In this document: positions 1,061 through 22,087 of the stretch, piece after piece
Position numbering within the stretch: position 1 is the first letter of the stretch
How the letters are laid out: each line of letters begins with the position of its first letter
Assembly (NCBI RefSeq): GCF_026151205.1
Contig: NC_087080.1
Span: 3,265,096-3,329,095, forward strand
Origin: Bolinopsis microptera
Taxonomy: Eukaryota > Ctenophora > Tentaculata > Lobata > Bolinopsidae
Direction of reading: 5' to 3'
DNA: 64,000 nucleotides
Program-made: the position numbers and the translations under genes
Notes under the pieces: generated by a model
What the model saw: only the letters and a program-made list of their open reading frames with translations
What the model was told of the DNA's origin: nothing
Databases searched by the model: none

Positions 1061-2160
1061 ATATCAAACCTTTGTAACATCACATCTCCGGCCCCAAATT
1101 ATAATTAAAAGTCCATAATTTCCGCCAGGCTTATCTCTGTTTAGAGGTCTGACATTCTGCGCCAAATAAAATAAACTTGTTTATAATTACCTAACGTCAA
1201 GGATTAGAAAGTGAGAGATGAAAAAGTGAGATTCCAAAATGTATCGCTTAGAATCTCACATCTATTCACAATTGCTTAGACTATGTAATGTAAATACGAA
1301 TTTAGAAGATTTATTAAAGATGTGAAATCTATTAAAATCAAATTATTGTATCAGAATTTTAATAATGATGTCTTAAATAAATATGTTAAAAAGTTCATAG
1401 AGGCTAATATAAACATCCGTGTACATATAAGTTTTGGGAGGTTTTAAAAACTAACATTTTTATCTAATTGCCCTTTTCTGTAACAATTCTTTCTGTAAAT
1501 ATTATATTTTTTTCTGTAAAATTAAAATTTTGAAAATTTGTTTTGATGAAGGAGCAAATTTGATATTTTACGCTTCTGAGTCATTCTTCAAATATCGTAT
1601 GTTTTGTTGTTATTTTGTTATTTTGCTATTATGTTATATTATGTTGATATTTGTTTTGATTTATTATTATTTGTTCTTTTGTTGTATCTTTGCATTAGTG
1701 TGTAATATAATTTTGGTGTTTAGTAAATTTTGTTTTCGTAGTTATCTTTATTCAGGACGTTACAGAAGGAATTGATTTAATGTAGTTGGAGGAGTCCTAA
1801 GTCTCCTCACGTCCGAAAATGGCGTTTCTCTTGTATCAAAAATGAATCACATTCTTGCTTCTCATTTGATCCTGACCTATGATTAGATTAATTTTAGGCA
1901 ACTTTCCAATGAGTTGAAATTTCGTCTCTTAAGGGGCTCTGAAAGGAAATAAAACTTGACATTGTGAAAACCTATTGGATATCTTAAGCCAGCCAGTATA
2001 GTTGTGAAGTTTTAAAGTTTAAAATTAAATAACTTAAAATCTTTTAGATGTTAATTTTTTCATTCTATGATAGCATTATGCCCGTCTTCGAACTATTGTC
2101 TATTAGTAATGCACAAATAAGTCACCCATACATGAATTTTAGAGCGTCTGTAGGGATTTC

Positions 2161-3844
2161 ATGGAAATCAGAGCAGCGATCTTATCTGTGATATGTCACA
2201 TGATTCTATCAGAATCAGCTGATCCGAAGAAGAAGACGACAGAATACATCGGATGTTACAAACATAATAGCACAACGTTTAGATGGGAGAATACAAGCGT
2301 CGTGATTAATGTTAACTTTACAACAGATGTATATCAGGAATGTCAAAGTAAAGCAAGAGTGCAAGGTTCGTCAAACATTTACACATATTTTATTTTATTT
2401 ACAGATTTATTCGCTTTTTCGTTCAATCATGTGTTTTGATTACCTTAATACAAGCTTACACTCTACAGCTGTGTGATTATCTACAGTAATACCCCAATTT
2501 AGGTGTAAAATCCGCGATAAATCGGGGTTTTAATTGTTTACAATATGTATGTTGATTGTTGAGCCCTATTTGGGGGAAGGAAATGCCCCCCCCCCCCCCC
2601 GGCGCCCTTATTCCTTAAAAACTCATTTTTGGAACATCTCTGCCCGATTAATAAATTTTTAACCTGTTTCAGGACACCATGTAGCTCAGTTTGAGTTCGA
2701 CGAACATCAACAACTATCGATCAGGTGCAAACCTGAAACTAAGATCAACATATATGAAGCTCTGCTCTTCGATCTTACTCCTGAATGCTTTGGTAGGTTA
2801 ATAAACATATTTATATTTTATATGTTTATAAAGAGTGTTACCGAGTTACGATTTCCTGTGCGTAACATCTTTTTAGTGTGCAGGTCTTCATTATCTTTCT
2901 CTAAAACTAGAATTATACTCCAATCTGATTTAATTATCAATTCAGGTAAAGAAATTGAAAACGTTACAACGTCAATTTACAACATGTGTTCCGCTGCGGA
3001 ACAGTGTCAAATATACGACCTTATAGAAGCAGACTACAATGTTGCAGATGGCTGTTACTACGAAAGGCTGAATATTACTTTTGGTTGTATGAACGACAGA
3101 TTGATCAAGTTAACTAGATTGACCAGAGGTACTGATGATCTGAATCCTTTTGATATAATATTATTAGCGTGCAGTCCTCTTTTGACGGTGTGTTGTGTAT
3201 GCACATGTTATTATGTTAATAAGGAGGACGAGGAGGACACCAACTCAACAGCTGCAACCAGTGGTACCCACTCATCACCTGCAACCAGTGGCACCTGGAG
3301 CACCTACTCATACCCATTACCTGCAACCAGAGGTACCTACTCATCACCTGCAACCGGTGGTACCCACTCATCACCTGCAACCGGTGGTACCCACTCATCA
3401 CCTGCAACCGGTGAAACCCACTCATCACCTGCAACCGGTGGTACCCACTCATCACCTGCAACCGGTGGTACCCACTCATCACCTGCAACCGGTGGTACCC
3501 ACTCATCACCTGCAACCGGTGGTACCCACTCATCACCTGCAACCGGAGGTACTTACCCATCACCTGCAACCAGAGGTACCTATTCATCATCATCAACCGG
3601 AGGTACCCACTCATCACCTGCAACCGGTGGCACCTACCCACCTGCCGCAACCGGTGGAATCTACCCACCACACGGAACCGTTGGAGCTAAGATATCTACC
3701 TTATCTGACCACTCTCCGCCAAGTTACAATGATGTCATTGACCTCCCACGGCTCCCACCGCCAAGTTACAATGATGTCACCACAAGTGGTGGAGGAACTA
3801 CTCTACCAATGACGGCTGGTTTGCAAAAACATCCTCATCAGTAA
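2161..3844 (+). CDS. Type I membrane protein with Thr/Ser/Pro repeats and PPxY tail (three exons)
   Basis: Exons at 2161-2365, 2673-2792 and 2946-3844 join with GT-AG introns, all phase 1, giving about 407 residues. Residues 1-20 form a hydrophobic signal peptide. The ectodomain has paired cysteines and several N-x-S/T sites, beginning EYIGCYKHNST and including CKPETKINIYEALLFDLTPEC and CSAAEQCQIYD. One membrane segment follows (FDIILLACSPLLTVCCVCTCYYV region), then an acidic stretch (NKEDEEDTN). The cytoplasmic tail holds about 14 nine-residue repeats (GTHSSPATG type). It ends with two PPSYND motifs, predicted to bind WW domains. The ectodomain family is not recognised; a WSC-like start (YIGCYK) is suggestive only. 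The start has no in-frame competitor with a signal peptide. A tandem paralogue lies to the left. Confidence 0.7.
3255..3655 (+). repeat. 27-bp coding minisatellite (GTHSSPATG repeats)
   Basis: About fourteen direct copies of a 27-base unit (consensus around GGTACCCACTCATCACC then TGCAACCGGT) lie inside exon 3 of the PPxY gene. Because 27 is divisible by three, copy-number changes keep the frame. Middle copies are nearly identical and edge copies diverged, as in a growing minisatellite. The other frames stay open too because of the periodicity, but those readings are not genes. Confidence 0.85.
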
Positions 3845-4672
3845 ACAAGATCAACTAGTGTTGACCCAGTTAAATAGATGACTTACCTCACCAAATTGAG
3901 GTGATAGAAAACAGTTACGGAGTACGGACTAACGGACTTAATTAAATACTGTACTAACAACATAATAAGTTAATTTTTATTATTATTAAGCTAATATTAA
4001 TATTAAGTTATTATTAATAATTAACAAGCACCATGAGAGTAGATGTAGTTGAGTATTTTGATGTGAGTTGAGAGTGCTAGATCTATAATCTCAGTGCTGC
4101 TGTCTCGGCCTGTTATCAGTATCCACAGCACTTGGAGCACTTTGTCAGAGATTACTCCTTCCTTATCGTCCTCTGCCAGTCTGACATTTGTTTCACAAAA
4201 TTTGTAAACAAACTGGACGTGTTGCATCCGAAAGTGCAAATTGAAATAATATTTATTGGAAACAGTAAATAGTAGATAAAATGAAGGCTCCCGTTCATCA
4301 CCTTTACAATATCGTGGATCTATTCTCAATGGGTAAATTAAAATTTGCGACATTATGCGAAATAAAGATTTTAAAAGGAATCCCTGTTTTTATAGCAACT
4401 CTCTCATTGAAGAAGACAAGTCAGAAATATTTAATACCATGACAAATCCAAAGGTCATGTGTTCGTATGGTCAAGTTATGATCATTATTCAGTTTGGAAA
4501 GAGAAATTGTAATCAAGGTACGTAACTAAATATTTAAATATTACACAACCATGTTCTCAAGTATTATTCTCTGCAACATACATAGTTATTTTTGATGACA
4601 CATTATTTGACTATTGAATTTCATTGCATTGATTTAACTGTTCGCTAAATAAATTACATTATTATCTTGAGA
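3845..4672. repeat. Tandem segmental duplication, copy 2
   Basis: This is the second copy of the 3' flank found at 243-1060. Similarity ends near CTTGAGACTTTA (about 4672), after which the two flanks differ. It contains the second USP9X-like fragment. Confidence 0.8.
4021..4240 (-). pseudogene. USP9X-like exon fragment, copy 2
   Basis: This is the partner of the fragment at 392-610, and most residues are unchanged (RLAEDDKEGVISDKVLQVLW, then IIDLALSTHIKILNY). The reading ends at the same stop. Differences such as MEGV/KEGV and RVSS/RDSS are few, so the duplication looks recent or the frame is constrained. The frame stays open upstream to about 4353, but that part shows no USP9X similarity and has no splice acceptor I can support. 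Confidence 0.6.
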
Positions 4673-5074
4673 CTTTATACTCCAGTAGCAGGGAGGGGTT
4701 GAGTGTGCACTTCGATGGCAGCATTATAGCATTTATTGAAGTTTTCCCTTAAATTTTGCTTCACGTACAACACGATTAATTACAATACCCTATTATTTTC
4801 AAGGTTCGTTGTGGGAATTTCCAAGGAAGCTAAATGGATATGGATTGGTTAAGACAACAAATCTACTGTGCACTGTCGACGTCGTTTACGTTTGAATTTG
4901 GAAGTAATTTATCTCTGGGGTGAGCATATAATTGGTTTCCCCGCTACCCTAAGCAAGAAATTCCACAGCCCCTTCCCCTTCCCCTCCCATTCCCTACCAC
5001 CAAAACTCCCGAAATCTTTAATAACTTTCCTACTAAGATATCTGAATCTCGGTCCGCTAAAGGTGGTAGATTGA

Positions 5075-5158
5075 ATGAGCGACAAGTTTGCCGATGCTTG
5101 TCTGATCACCATGGTTACGAGATGCAGTTTCAGAATCCAGCCAGTATCAGTCGAAGAG
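5075..5158 (+). CDS. Possible first coding exon (orphan)
   Basis: ATG at 5075 opens 28 codons (MSDKFADACLITMV...PVSVEE) and ends in phase 0 at a good donor (GAAGAG|gtatat). It could join the phase 0 exon at 5644-5748. No domain is recognised. This is a splice-signal-based guess. Confidence 0.25.
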
Positions 5159-5379
5159 GTATATATTGCTTAACCAATTGAAGTGGCTAGTGCTGCAGTA
5201 GTCATTCTTTTGTGTTTCAAGCCTCCTAGGTCTCTAAAATCGAGTAAGATTTATAAGCTGTCGTTTGCAGTGGTCTATTCTTTGGTAGATTGTATTTTAT
5301 GTTATACTTATAGTTGTAAAACTAGAGGTTATCTCTGTATAACTTATCAGTACCCTTTTCCCAATTGTGACACAGATAA

Positions 5380-5435
5380 CTGTGACACGGATGTGACACG
5401 GGTGTGACACGGGTGTGACACGGGTGTGACACAGA
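5380..5435 (+). repeat. 12-bp minisatellite (GTGTGACACGGG)
   Basis: About five direct copies of a GTGACACGGGTG-type unit, degenerate at the edges. Confidence 0.8.
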
Positions 5436-5643
5436 CAGCTATGATGATGTCAACCAGCTAAAATTATCAACCTGCCAGATTTACCCTTATTTGGATGCCC
5501 TTGATAAGTATTTCCAGAGGTTAGGTTTCTTTTCATACGGCTCATCATTTTTAATTCCAACCAATGATTTATAATTCAGTTAAAGATAATTGGATATTGA
5601 AAACTTGAAAAAAGGTAAATCAATAATGCTGCTCGTTTCTCAG

Positions 5644-5748
5644 GACACAATCCGAAATTTAAGCGACGCCTTAAATCCAGCTGAAATGATGGTACCAGCA
5701 CTTCCTATTTCTGCAATGCCAGGAATCTACTCAGCTCTATTCCACCAG
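5644..5748 (+). CDS. Possible internal coding exon (orphan, 35 residues)
   Basis: A pyrimidine-rich acceptor (CTCGTTTCTCAG) precedes 35 open codons (DTIRNLSDALNP...SALFHQ). A donor (CACCAG|gtgact) follows, so the exon is phase 0 on both sides. It could precede the TIR gene 1.4 kb downstream. However, no in-frame phase 0 acceptor exists at the TIR exon's 5' edge, so another exon would be needed between them. The family is unrecognised. Confidence 0.3.
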
Positions 5749-5790
5749 GTGACTAATTCATTGCATGGAATTATTTTTGTTTGGGTTTAG

Positions 5791-5954
5791 GGTTCTTTTG
5801 TGATAGTGTAAACGCGACAACTAGCGCTGGATGGCGGCAACTAGTGCTATCCAGCGCTAGTTGTTATCCAGCGCTGGATAACAACTAGCGCTGGATAGCG
5901 CTGGTTGTCGCCATCCAGCGCTAGTTGTCGCGTTTACACTATCGCAAAAGAACC
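5791..5954. mobile_element. 164-bp foldback MITE built from CCAGCGCTGG units
   Basis: The ends are inverted repeats of about 45 bases (GGTTCTTTTGTGATAGTG and its complement, with one or two mismatches). The interior is a nested palindrome made of repeated CTAGCGCTGGAT blocks. The whole can fold into a single long hairpin. No clear target duplication is visible, and no coding sequence. From 5955 to 7160 I see no gene, only AT-rich sequence with a short (CT)n run near 6940. Confidence 0.7.
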
Positions 5955-7160: not shown

Positions 7161-10100
7161 ATGATTAAAAGGAGGGTGACCAGTAGAAACTATGAAGATA
7201 GCAGGACTGAATGTGAAATGAGGCAGATGGAAAGGAAGCACGTGATGCTGTCCTACCAGTGGGATTCTCAGGAAATAGTACTGAGGGTCTACAACAGCTT
7301 AACATCACTAGGGTACCGGGTCTGGATGGATATTATGGGAGGTAAGGGTTTACTATATCAATATCCATAAATTTCACCTCAAAAATAGGTATAAATCAAA
7401 ACGATTTAGTAAGTGAGCCGTACATTAACCGTTTTATGGTTCATTCACTTAAGGTTTTTTATATATAAAAGTAAAACTTCTAAGACGCCACCTGGCAGTA
7501 TTTTGTGTAGGGTATTTTCTACCGCACTTAATTCAGCTGATAACACCTACTTATCTGTGACCATATACATACCACGTTAGATTTGTTTGGAGAGGCGAAT
7601 CATACACAGTTTAACTTTAGGCTCTTAAATTCTTCGAATAAAATATCATCTTTAGAGAACTTCCTCAAATTATTTGTTAAATAGTCGTGTTGAAAGTATT
7701 AAAACACACACACACACCAGGTATAAGCGGAGGTAACATATTCGCCAGCATGGCACTTAACACACACACACCAGGTATAAGCGGAGGTAACATATTCGCC
7801 AGCATGGCACTTAACACACACATACCAGGTATAAGCGGAGGTAACATATTCGCCAGCATGGCACTTAACACACACACACCAGGTATAAGCGGAGGTAACA
7901 TATTCGCCAGCATGGCACTTAACACACACACACCAGGTATAAGCGGAGGTAACATATTCGCCAGCATGGCACTTAACACACACATACCAGGTATAAGCGG
8001 AGGTAACATATTCGCCAGCATGGCACTTAACACACACACACCAGGTATAAGCGGAGGTAACATATTCGCCAGCATGGCACTTAACACACACATACCAGGT
8101 ATAAGCGGAGGTAACATATTCGCCAGCATGGCACTTAACACACACACACCAGGTATAAGCGGAGGTAACATATTCGCCAGCATGGCACTTAACACACATA
8201 CACCAGGTATAAGCGGAGGTAACATATTCGCCAGCATGGCACTTAACACACACATACCAGGTATAAGCGGAGGTAACATATTCGCCAGCATGGCACTTAA
8301 CACACACATACCAGGTATAAGCGGAGGTAACATATTCGCCAGCATGGCACTTAACACACACACATACCAGGTATAAGCGGAGGTAACATATTCGCCAGCA
8401 TGGCACTTAACACACATACACCAGGTATAAGCGGAGGTAACATATTCGCCAGCATGGCACTTAACACACACATACCAGGTATAAGCGGAGGTAACATATT
8501 CGCCAGCATGGCACTTAACACACACATACCAGGTATAAGCGGAGGTAACATATTCGCCAGCATGGCACTTAACACACAGTACACACATACCAGGTATAAG
8601 CGGAGGTAACATATTCGCCAGCATGGCACTTAACACACACACACCAGGTATAAGCGGAGGTAACATATTCGCCAGCATGGCACTTAACACACACACACCA
8701 GGTATAAGCGGAGGTAACATATTCGCCAGCATGGCACTTAACACACACATACCAGGTATAAGCGGAGGTAACATATTCGCCAGCATGGCACTTAACACAC
8801 ACACATACCAGGTATAAGCGGAGGTAACATATTCGCCAGCATGGCACTTAACACACACACATACCAGGTATAAGCGGAGGTAACATATTCGCCAGCATGG
8901 CACTTAACACACACACACCAGGTATAAGCGGAGGTAACATATTCGCCAGCATGGCACTTAACACACACACACCAGGTATAAGCGGAGGTAACATATTCGC
9001 CAGCATGGCACTTAACACACACATACCAGGTATAAGCGGAGGTAACATATTCGCCAGCATGGCACTTAACACAGACATACCAGGTATAAGCGGAGGTAAC
9101 ATATTCGCCAGCATGGCACTTAACACACACACATACCAGGTATAAGCGGAGGTAACATATTCGCCAGCATGGCACTTAACACACACATACCAGGTATAAG
9201 CGGAGGTAACATATTCGCCAGCATGGCACTTAACACACATACACACCAGGTATAAGCGGAGGTAACATATTCGCCAGCATGGCACTTAACACACACACAC
9301 CAGGTATAAGCGGAGGTAACATATTCGCCAGCATGGCACTTAACACACACATACCAGGTATAAGCGGAGGTAACATATTCGCCAGCATGGCACTTAACAC
9401 ACACACACCAGGTATAAGCGGAGGTAACATATTCGCCAGCATGGCACTTAACACACACACACACCAGGTATAAGCGGAGGTAACATATTCGCCAGCATGG
9501 CACTTAACACACACACACACCAGGTATAAGCGGAGGTAACATATTCGCCAGCATGGCACTTAACACACACACACACCAGGTATAAGCGGAGGTAACATAT
9601 TCGCCAGCATGGCACTTAACACACACATACCAGGTATAAGCGGAGGTAACATATTCGCCAGCATGGCACTTAACACACACACACCAGGTATAAGCGGAGG
9701 TAACATATTCGCCAGCATGGCACTTAACACACACACATACCAGGTATAAGCGGAGGTAACATATTCGCCAGCATGGCACTTAACACACACATACCAGGTA
9801 TAAGCGGAGGTAACATATTCGCCAGCATGGCACTTAACACACACACACCAGGTATAAGCGGAGGTAACATATTCGCCAGCATGGCACTTAACACACACAC
9901 ACACACCAGGTATAAGCGGAGGTAACATATTCGCCAGCATGGCACTTAACACACACACACCAGGTATAAGCGGAGGTAACATATTCGCCAGCATGGCACT
10001 TAACACACACATACCAGGTATAAGCGGAGGTAACATATTCGCCAGCATGGCACTTAACACACACACATACCAGGTATAAGCGGAGGTAACATATTCGCCA

Positions 10101-11732
10101 GCATGGCACTTAACACACACATACCAGGTATAAGCGGAGGTAACATATTCGCCAGTATGGCACTTAACACACACACATACCAGGTATAAGCGGAGGTAAC
10201 ATATTCGCCAGCATGGCACTTAACACACACATACCAGGTATAAGCGGAGGTAACATATTCGCCAGTATGGCACTTAACACACACACATACCAGGTATAAG
10301 CGGAGGTAACATATTCGCCAGCATGGCACTTAACACACACACACACCAGGTATAAGCGGAGGTAACATATTCGCCAGCATGGCACTTAACACACACATAC
10401 CAGGTATAAGCGGAGGTAACATATTCGCCAGTATGGCACTTAACACACACACATACCAGGTATAAGCGGAGGTAACATATTCGCCAGCATTGCACTTAAC
10501 ACACACATACCAGGTATAAGCGGAGGTAACATATTCGCCAGCATGGCACTTAACACACACACACCAGGTATAAGCGGAGGTAACATATTCGCCAGCATGG
10601 CACTTAACACACACACATACCAGGTATAAGCGGAGGTAACATATTCGCCAGCATGGCACTTAACACACACACACCAGGTATAAGCGGAGGTAACATATTC
10701 GCCAGCATGGCACAGAGCATCGAGAAGAGCAGTGCTCTAGTGTGCTTCATGACTGAGGGCTACGAGAGGTCGTCTAATGGGGAGAAGGAGTTGACGTACG
10801 CGGACAATACGAGTGTCAGGATTATACCGTGTTTGTTGCAGGAGAGAGTGGGGGGAGGAGAACCTTATAAACCGACTGGTATTAAACATATAATAATGAA
10901 TCAAATAATGCAACGCCAACGTTGTGTAATTCTATCACATAATTATGATAATTGTGATTTTGAATCGATCCCAAAGAGTTAAGAGATTAAGTAAAGTTAA
11001 TTTCTTTTGGAAATAAGTAATACCGACTTAGAGATATGACAGAGTTCTTCTTCTCAGGCTGGCTTGGATTTCTTAGATCTAACTTACTGTACGTTGATTT
11101 CACGAAGGCTGAATCAGACGAAGAGGTTTATGATAAAGCAATCGAGGACCTCGTCAAACAGATGAACTTTTACATGGTGCGCTTTCTGTTCCGCAAATTG
11201 CAAATCAAAAACAAACTGTGAAATGAAATTATGGATGATAAGATTTTAAAAATATGACTATTATGAAACTAATTTGTTTTGTGGGTATATTGTTCATAAA
11301 ATTATTGGCCACGATAAGTTTACCAATTTAACCATATTTTTCCAGATAATTCCTAATATAACTGGAACAGAAGCACAAGAAAGGATCTTAAACTCGAGTT
11401 CATCACCTACAGCTGACTTCCAAACAGCTGACTTCCCTACAGCCATCATATCAAACCCACTATTATCCCACTTTACCCAAGAAAGGGATCCAACCTGCAC
11501 AGGACCCATGACAGCGCTGAGACTCAGTATAGAATCCATACCACAGCACATTGTGAGGCAAGTTCGCAGACAATTCAGTCGCTCTAGATCAGGGTCAGAC
11601 AGCGTGTCGTCAAATTCTGCGGGTGGTGGAGGGGAGATAAGGGACCAGTCTGACAGTGGCTCTAGTCTGAGTACTGTGTCTGAACCTAGTTTAGATGAAC
11701 AATATTCTCACCTTGGTAGTGCTCCTCCGTGA
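7161..11732 (+). CDS. TIR-domain protein with Ser-rich tail (four exons)
   Basis: Exons 7161-7341, 10678-10878, 11058-11176 and 11346-11732 join in matching phases (1, 1, 0) with GT-AG junctions, giving about 295 residues. TIR landmarks: box 1 HVMLSYQWDSQ (27-37), GYRVWMD (51-57) leading into the BB loop, then ASMAQSIEKSSALVCFM and the EKELTYA helix. Next come RIIPCLLQ, YKPTGWLGF and a final helix (AIEDLVKQM). TIR domains signal by self-association or NAD cleavage. A Glu is present in EKELTYA where many animal TIRs have C-x-x-E-x-x-YA, but the usual Cys is Gly, so activity is uncertain. The last 129 codons are Ser/Thr-rich without a known domain. No membrane segment is seen. The start has A at -3; upstream exons cannot be excluded. 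Intron 1 holds the splice-site minisatellite. Confidence 0.75.
7703..10712 (+). repeat. 55-copy minisatellite derived from the TIR gene's own 3' splice site and exon start
   Basis: There are 55 direct units of 54-58 bases. Each has a (CA)n stretch, then CCAG|GTATAAGCGGAGG, AACATATTCGCCAGCATGGCA, and CTTAA leading into the next CA run. Length varies mainly by the CA count, plus one irregular unit near 8570. The last unit runs straight into the authentic TIR exon. The 35 bases from GTATAAGC to ATGGCA are its real coding start, and only the following CTTAACACA is replaced by CAGAGC. The array thus arose by amplification of intron end plus exon start. Long readings on both strands across the array reflect periodicity, not genes. 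Rare variants (CAGTATGG, CAGCATTGC) recur near 10.1-10.5 kb, which suggests higher-order duplication. Confidence 0.95.
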
Positions 11733-17963: not shown

Positions 17964-18592
17964 TGACTCCCAGTACACCTCAATTTGGTTTTATACCATC
18001 ATTAATTAACTGACTAATTGGTTTCTGTCAAATTTGTGTTCAGAAAATTTCATATTTGAAAATGGGACAGGATTTTGAAAATGCAACCTTTCGTTTTGTT
18101 AAGCTTTCTGCTGTGGGCTTCTTCCGACCAAAATCAAACTTCCAGCACCTCAAATCGTGTCATTTGTTATCTATTGTTGACTTACTTATTGGTTGCAGGT
18201 GAAAAAATCAGTCAAAACTGTAAAATTTCGGTCCTGGAAATTTCATCTTCAAAAACTGAAAATGGGACAGATATTGGGAAAATATGATTTTGCAATTTTA
18301 TTCGGGATTTTGACCCTCAATACCTCAATTTGGTTTCATACCATCATCAATTAACTGACTAATTGGTTTCTGGGCAAAAGTTTCATCCAATCTGTCAATT
18401 TTGTGTTCAGAAAATTTCATATTTGAAAATGGGACAGGATTTTGAAAATGCAACCTTTCGTTTTGTTAAGCTTTCTGCTGTGGGCTTCCTCCGACCGAAA
18501 TCAAACTTCCAGCACCTCAATCGTGTCATTTGGCATCTATTGTTGACTTACTAATTGGTTGCAGGTGAAAAAATCAGTCAAACCTGTAAAAT
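17964..18592 (+). repeat. ~370-bp satellite, second block
   Basis: This is the continuation of the array interrupted at 14819, with starts near 18038 and 18404. It ends where the (CTCCCT)n array begins, inside the usual GTAAAATTTCGGTCC segment (here GTAAAATCCCTCTCC). Confidence 0.8.
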
Positions 18593-19050
18593 CCCTCTCC
18601 CTCTCCCTCTCCCTCTCCCTCTCCCTCTCCCTCTCCCTCTCCCTCTCCCTCTCCCTCTCCCTCTCCCTCTCCCTCTCCCTCTCCCTCTCCCTCTCCCTCT
18701 CCCTCTCCCTCTCCCTCTCCCTCTCCCTCTCCCTCTCCCTCTCCCTCTCCCTCTCCCTCTCCCTCTCCCTCTCCCTCTCCCTCTCCCTCTCCCTCTCCCT
18801 CTCCCTCTCCCTCTCCCTCTCCCTCTCCCTCTCCCTCTCCCTCTCCCTCTCCCTCTCCCTCTCCCTCTCCCTCTCCCTCTCCCTCTCCCTCTCCCTCTCC
18901 CTCTCCCTCTCCCTCTCCCTCTCCCTCTCCCTCTCCCTCTCCCTCTCCCTCTCCCTCTCCCTCTCCCTCTCCCTCTCCCTCTCCCTCTCCCTCTCCCTCT
19001 CCCTCTCCCTCTCCCTCTCCCTCTCCCTCTCCCTCTCCCTCTCCCTCTCT
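18593..19050 (+). repeat. (CTCCCT)n array, about 76 uninterrupted copies
   Basis: A perfect hexamer repeat of about 455 bp. The G-rich strand is (GGGAGA)n, a run of G-triplets with three-base spacers that fits the G-quadruplex rule throughout. Apparent Leu-Pro, Ser-Leu and Arg-Glu proteins across it are artefacts of repetition. Confidence 0.95.
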
Positions 19051-21603: not shown

Positions 21604-22087
21604 GTCCCTCTCCCTCTCCCTCTCCCTCTCCTTCTCCCTCTCCCTCTCCCTCTCCCTCTCCCTCTCCCTCTCCCTCTCCCTCTCCCTCCCCCTCCCCCTC
21701 CCCCTCCCCCTCCCCCTCTCCCTCTCCCTCTCCCTCTCCCTCTCCCTCTCTCTCTCCCTCTCCCTCTCCCTCTCCCTCTCCCTCTCCCTCTCCCTCTCCC
21801 TCTCCCTCTCCCTCTCCCTCTCCCTCTCCCTCTCCCTCTCCCTCTCCCTCTCCCTCTCCCTCTCCCTCTCCCTCTCCCTCTCCCTCTCCCTCTCCCTCTC
21901 CCTCTCCCTCTCCCTCTCCCTCTCCCTCTCCCTCTCCCTCTCCCTCTCCCTCTCCCTCTCCCTCTCCCTCTCCCTCTCCCTCTCCCTCTCCCTCTCCCTC
22001 TCCCTCTCCCTCTCCCTCTCCCTCTCACTCTCCCTCTCCCTCTCCCTCTCCCTCTCCCTCTCCCTCCCCCTCTCCCTCTCCCTCTCT
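21604..22087 (+). repeat. (CTCCCT)n array, second copy, about 80 units
   Basis: The same hexamer as at 18593-19050, but less pure: a CTTCTC unit, a block of CTCCCC units around 21690-21715, one CTCTCT and one CTCACT unit. It ends in the same CTCTCTGAAAGAACAG flank as copy 1. Confidence 0.95.

Follow-up and report, generated by a model that had tools for sequence, protein, structure and literature searches.

A minisatellite of copied splice acceptors in the first intron of a TIR-domain gene in the ctenophore Bolinopsis microptera

The first intron of a predicted TIR-domain gene in the ctenophore Bolinopsis microptera contains 54 tandem copies of its own 3′ boundary, each made of a splice acceptor and the first 36 bases of exon 2. 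The real exon 2 follows the last copy, giving 55 CAG|GT junctions between positions 7721 and 10678 of the window, the whole stretch of 64,000 nucleotides that was analysed (NCBI RefSeq assembly GCF_026151205.1, contig NC_087080.1, positions 3,265,096 to 3,329,095 of the forward strand). By these features, the array belongs with the boundary-spanning minisatellites known from amphioxus as mirages, and it holds many more copies than the one in the globin gene BflGb6. It is probably a passive minisatellite of this type (probability roughly 0.78), which would be removed during splicing by exon definition at the last acceptor. An earlier note on this DNA had placed tandem copies of an acceptor and an exon start in a TIR gene, within its first intron and at the BB-loop region, and this placement is borne out by TRF, a scan of the junctions, a TIR_2 profile match and an alignment of paralogs.

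The host is a TIR_2 gene, modelled from reading frame, junctions and homology as four putative exons that join in frame to one protein (Table 1). The inferred spliced protein matches TIR_2 (PF13676) over residues 28-151, scoring 67.9 bits where the cut-off is 28, the protein scored being a near-identical version that is four residues shorter at the joint of exons 3 and 4. The PF01582 profile scores 13 on the inferred spliced protein, under its cut-off of 21.3. This match to PF13676 only agrees with a report on three ctenophores in which PF13676 was detected and PF01582 was not (PMC11797021). A sequence search of the PDB with the TIR protein returned three weak matches, the best of them (E 0.015) to a CRISPR-associated TIR protein. 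Two glutamate receptor loci were also compared with the PDB: one resembled vertebrate kainate receptors most closely, with ctenophore ML032222a chains from E 2e-52, and the other gave no hit at E 1e-70 or better. Alignment to paralogs places the boundary between exons 1 and 2 just past the WMD strand, in the BB-loop region. If exon 3 is read through without splicing at 11176, a stop is met shortly downstream.

Table 1. Features of the predicted TIR gene and its array, in positions of the window
Feature	Positions	Strand	Description	Basis
Exon 1	7161..7341	+	ATG at 7161; start of TIR domain and WMD strand; phase 1 end at GGAG|GTAAGG	translation and junctions, TIR_2 match
Intron 1	7342..10677	+	3336 bases, of which the array makes up 2975	gene model
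Array	7703..10677	+	54 units: (CA)n acceptor CAG|, copy of the 36-base start of exon 2, CTTAA joint	TRF, junction scan, unit comparison
Unit 54	10624..10677	+	sole upstream acceptor from which exon 2 is reached in an open frame, with 18 added residues	translation
Exon 2	10678..10878	+	201 bases; begins in the BB-loop region; donor CTG|GTATTA	gene model, junction scan
Exon 3	11058..11176	+	end of TIR domain	gene model
Exon 4	11346..11732	+	putative Ser-rich tail	gene model

TRF reports the array at 7706-10713, with a period of 54, 54.9 copies, 96% matches and a score of 5465. An exact scan for CCAG|GTATAAGCGGAGG found 55 junctions, the first exon-like base lying at 7721 in the first and at 10678 in the last, and none outside the array in the 64,000-base window. 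The AG/GT splice signals are present as CAG|GT at 55 of 55 junctions and only the last unit continues into the full exon 2 (10678-10878), just as the earlier note had counted them. That the copied coding stretch is the start of the exon also stands, but its length is 36 bases rather than the 35 first given: unit and real exon part ways after base 36, where the unit passes to TTAA(CA)n and then to the next acceptor. The 54 spacings between junctions are mostly of 54 bases (37) or 56 bases (15), with one each of 58 and 61. Over the first 38 bases, 50 of the 54 units are identical, three share a common C>T and one has a G>T, so that two positions only are variable; the remaining variation from unit to unit is confined to the (CA)n tail, a microsatellite tract. 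Chance is not a candidate cause of 55 near-identical copies, and no claim of selection on the exon copies is made, the copies being nearly invariant and the variable part a microsatellite tract. A recent block duplication within the array is unsupported, as the repeated runs of unit types reach a length of 3 at most, which is not above that in 5000 shuffles. RNA structure gave nothing that stands out in any of the three stretches tested (z 0.29, 0.59 and 1.23).

The joint between units carries TTAAC, 14 to 18 bases upstream of each AG as measured for the three tail types, with TTAAAAC in its place in the first unit. TTAAC is branch-point-like, and each unit may amount to a complete weak acceptor. 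Two donor-like sites are also found in every unit, CAG|GTATAA and GAG|GTAACA, each with six of nine matches to the U1 consensus, by which measure introns 1, 2 and 3 have real donors with seven, five and six. The GTATAA directly after every acceptor scores six of nine within the unit and five of nine, as GAG|GTATAA, once exon 1 has been joined to it. The real acceptor is itself preceded by an ordinary unit of type B, a type to which 16 of the 54 units belong, and whatever singles out the last acceptor would thus have to lie beyond base 36 of exon 2 rather than in the acceptor. The locus is also a natural test of acceptor choice among 55 locally identical sites, a choice that must use exon-level information.

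When the sequence is translated up to the last base of exon 2 starting at each of the 55 acceptors, the frame stays open only for the last two, 54 (10624) and 55 (10678), and a stop is reached from 53 of the 54 upstream acceptors. TAA stops are present in both shifted frames of the unit and units of lengths other than 54 bases are dispersed along the array, which leaves the insert of 18 residues valid for one unit only. The earlier note had expected such in-frame inserts per 54-base unit, with a shift of frame from units of 56 or 58 bases; they are the outcome for one acceptor in 54, that at 10624.

Mirages in amphioxus are described as minisatellite-like duplications of intron-exon boundaries with AG/GT signals in many units; they lie in the genes for Adh3, the globins BflGb6 and BflGb9, troponin C and PGBD5, and regular splicing is undisturbed, as RT-PCR suggested (PMC3087553, PMC3902484). 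Like them, the TIR array consists of tandem minisatellite copies with AG/GT in the units, and its repeat unit lies across an intron-exon boundary, itself inferred from the gene model. Its unit length falls within the 10-72 bases stated for Adh3 (PMC3087553, PMC3902484). BflGb6 shares the arrangement of intron 3′ end and 5′ part of exon, and its two haplotypes are described with 6 and 3 units; here there are 54 extra copies, and the units have 54 bases against 150-160 (PMC3087553). The array further differs from the amphioxus cases in its phylum and in lying in a TIR gene. It is unusual for a mirage in its 54 copies, its gene and its ctenophore host.

Human genes offer two further likenesses. 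The CBS variant 844ins68 also places a duplicated junction, that of intron 7 and exon 8, before one exon, and the distal site is strongly favoured there, but it is a single extra copy of 68 bases and not an array (PMC2630376). Internal tandem repeats at exon-intron boundaries in segmental duplications are likewise boundary minisatellites that affect splicing; they differ in having units of 30 bases on average repeated four times, in lying for one half in coding exons, in that they may form new introns at boundaries, and in being backed by RNA (PMC2812944). The TIR array extends boundary-spanning minisatellites from these amphioxus and human cases to a ctenophore, and no such array in a ctenophore is named in the titles or opening lines of abstracts among the matches listed from the open-licence literature.

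A DNA search of the whole assembly found the array at one other place, within C5:20872798-20876327. The C5 block around it, which ends at C5:20894775, tracks the window piecewise over positions of about 251 to 28050, with window 1426-2405 placed before 251-961 and about 1.35 kb beside window 961 without a partner. Relative to the window, mismatches, inserted bases and deleted bases per 100 window bases amount to 5.6, 12.6 and 2.8 upstream, 5.6, 12.8 and 3.4 in exon 1, 5.3, 8.3 and 2.5 in the unique part of intron 1, 5.2, 13.0 and 2.5 in the array, 4.8, 18.2 and 1.8 in exon 2, and 5.6, 14.2 and 2.7 downstream. In C5, inserted bases outnumber deleted ones about fivefold (1611 against 320), at similar rates in the flanks, exon 1 and the array. 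A repeat element in the block, which is LINE-like by eye (a reverse-transcriptase-like flank and a T run), differs from a clean copy of 1220 bases by 51 mismatches, 105 inserted and 24 deleted bases, and two clean copies of this element agree at 1215 of 1221 positions (99.5%); of the six pairs set side by side, the four on opposite strands were left aside. Searched against the assembly, the element gave 42 rows: itself, 27 spanning at least bases 1-1286 of its 1301 at 84-86% identity, and 14 shorter ones. Such an error pattern is that expected of one raw long read and not of an old duplicate.

A diverged paralog was considered for the C5 copy and ruled out by the similar noise in the flanks, exon 1 and the array and by the noisy repeat element. 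In all, the block covers at least about 34 kb (C5:20860880-20894775) and has the appearance of a long read from the C9 locus, raw and unpolished, put in place by gap filling. This reading fits the published Bolinopsis microptera assembly, for which gaps were closed by TGS-Gapcloser and PacBio CLR is named among the libraries of the study (PMC10232365). Such an insertion of a C9 read into C5 would be an assembly error that passes for a diverged paralog.

Aligned with both flanks, the C5 copy has 55 units, with no insertion in the array longer than 17 bases and no unit-sized gap, and 40 of its 55 junctions read CAGGT, about as the noise rate predicts. The register of unit order between C5 and the window is 1.591 at shift 0, against a permutation mean of 0 with an sd of 0.15 and a maximum of 0.61 (20000 permutations); the units match in order only at this shift, about 10 sd beyond permutation. 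It is on the flank-to-flank alignment and this register test that the count of 55 rests, the plain fit of a 54-base consensus being not decisive (1966.6, 2021.2, 2069.2, 2070.4 and 2066.2 for 52 to 56 intervals, where 54 are expected for 55 junctions). The repeat element of the C5 copy lies near window 4190, where the window has none, which marks the copy as a separate DNA molecule from the window; it is probably the other haplotype. The number of units is thus observed in two DNA molecules, two chromosomes at most, with no length difference between them, and the length polymorphism that the earlier note had suggested is not seen in this comparison, since the other available molecule agrees with the window in the number (55) and order of its units.

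For the passive reading, the duplication step would have taken a segment with one end in the (CA)n tract ahead of the 3′ splice site and the other at base 36 of exon 2 and repeated it in tandem, joining GGCAC to TTAA(CA)n; we infer this step, while the copies and their uniformity are observed. The array would then have expanded to 54 nearly uniform copies, carried within the intron and presumed to lack a function. The last acceptor would be chosen by exon definition, likewise a reconstruction, as the one that starts the shortest exon (201 bases) reaching a donor, and use of an upstream acceptor would nearly always lead to a premature stop, as in the observed frame outcomes. That the units lead one after another into the real exon supports a minisatellite of the mirage type. 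Against the reading as a whole stand the local equivalence of all acceptors, which makes leaky use plausible, the two donor-like sites in every unit, the candidate acceptor at the next AG described below for the C3 and C10 paralogs, and the absence of length instability, a reported trait of mirages, from the one comparison possible, that of the window with C5.

Such leaky use could damp the TIR protein, upstream acceptors leading to a stop and to decay, while acceptor 54 would supply a minor form longer by 18 residues in the BB-loop region. The local equivalence of the acceptors, the 53 of 54 that run into a stop and the one open form would all suit this, and human boundary tandem repeats can cause alternative splicing (PMC2812944), but amphioxus mirages and CBS 844ins68 are reported as regularly spliced (PMC3087553, PMC3902484, PMC2630376), and such tuning by leaky use is unlikely. 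More generally, it seems quite improbable that the array is active, whether as a ratchet splicing ladder or as a decoy array setting the level of functional TIR mRNA, with occasional BB-loop inserts of 18 residues from acceptor 54 or of four residues from a microexon. The ladder taken by itself is very unlikely. Each acceptor with its donor-like GTATAA would there form a zero-length exon and the intron would be removed stepwise, or a 12-base microexon (CAG|...GGAG|GTAACA) would add four residues in frame. Recursive splice sites, or ratchet points, share with the units an acceptor that is directly followed by donor-like sequence; CAG|GTATAA, with six of nine matches to the U1 consensus, exceeds the five of the real intron 2 donor, and the microexon is phase neutral. 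Set against this, by the same consensus the GAG|GTATAA regenerated after joining of exon 1 has only five matches, its +5 base is A and not G, and the real exon begins with the same donor-like sequence. The weak donor, the (CA)n tract in place of a pyrimidine-rich one, the short intron (3.3 kb) and the tandem copies also set the array apart from recursive splice sites.

The earlier note had proposed a length-polymorphic switch on an immune-type gene. The TIR_2 gene and the position of the array at the BB-loop region accord with it, as does the length instability reported for mirages (PMC3087553), but two molecules that differ by the insertion of a repeat element each hold the 55 units in one and the same order and an in-frame result is obtained from only one acceptor in 54, which makes such a switch highly improbable. 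It is hardly credible that the assembler expanded or misplaced the array: an artefact-like copy of the region is indeed present on C5, but that copy, apparently a single unpolished read, spans the array and both flanks with the same unit order and without a unit-sized gap.

A protein search found relatives of the TIR gene on C2, C3, C10 and C11 and, at a greater distance in sequence, elsewhere on C9, and 22 stretches of the genome match TIR_2. In the C10 and C3 paralogs, GGV[ST]G|N is interrupted by an intron (216 bases in C10, about 227 in C3) whose site is shifted 12 bases downstream from that of the array gene; no acceptor array was found at this BB-loop intron in either of them. The C2 relative has no intron across residues 1-120 of 141, the part that matched. 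The GISG encoded just past the last CAG resembles GGV[ST]G in three of the five aligned paralog copies (C2, C3 and C10), and this speaks for the final CAG|GT being the true acceptor; the two C11 copies have DMSG at this position. In the alignment, exon 2 of the C3 and C10 paralogs begins at GGAG|GTAAC, the AG that comes 12 bases later in the unit and could be the acceptor in place of CAG|GT. When the exon sequence of the array gene is joined without its intron, GGAGGTA occurs twice, 12 bases apart, and the intron may have slid between these two sites in the array gene relative to the C3 and C10 paralogs.

The C3 paralog carries a 31-base repeat of 2.2 copies (1694-1760 of the C3 paralog stretch) across the donor of its BB-loop intron, with TTTCAG|GTTAGT present twice, which by its sequence can be considered a minimal mirage of the opposite boundary, in two copies. 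Together with the array, it points to boundary duplication at least twice in this TIR family. Boundary repeats have been proposed to help create new intron positions (PMC3087553); the 12-base shift of the intron in C10 and C3 and the donor duplication in C3 fit this idea without proving it.

Other repeats lie near the acceptors of later introns in these paralogs. In the C3 paralog, an 8-base array at 791-899 of the paralog stretch, CTAACATG in 13.6 copies, ends 17 bases before such an acceptor, and its CTAAC resembles a branch-point motif. A 30-base minisatellite in the C10 paralog (752-1851 of its stretch, 38 copies), with GTAAGT within several of its units, ends about 42 bases before a later intron's acceptor, and the intron that holds it also contains, at about 2400-5950 of that stretch, two inverted copies of what is by eye a secreted glycosidase-type gene. 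Elsewhere in the window, an open frame at 2663-3844 includes a 27-base coding minisatellite that encodes THSSPATGG-type repeats (12.7 copies by TRF), and positions 1-240 appear by eye to be the tail of a tandem copy of this gene. Hexamer arrays of TCCCTC occupy 18592-19049 and 21605-22086 (76 and 80 copies by TRF); their flanking DNA is similar, and the two are therefore probably one duplicated element.
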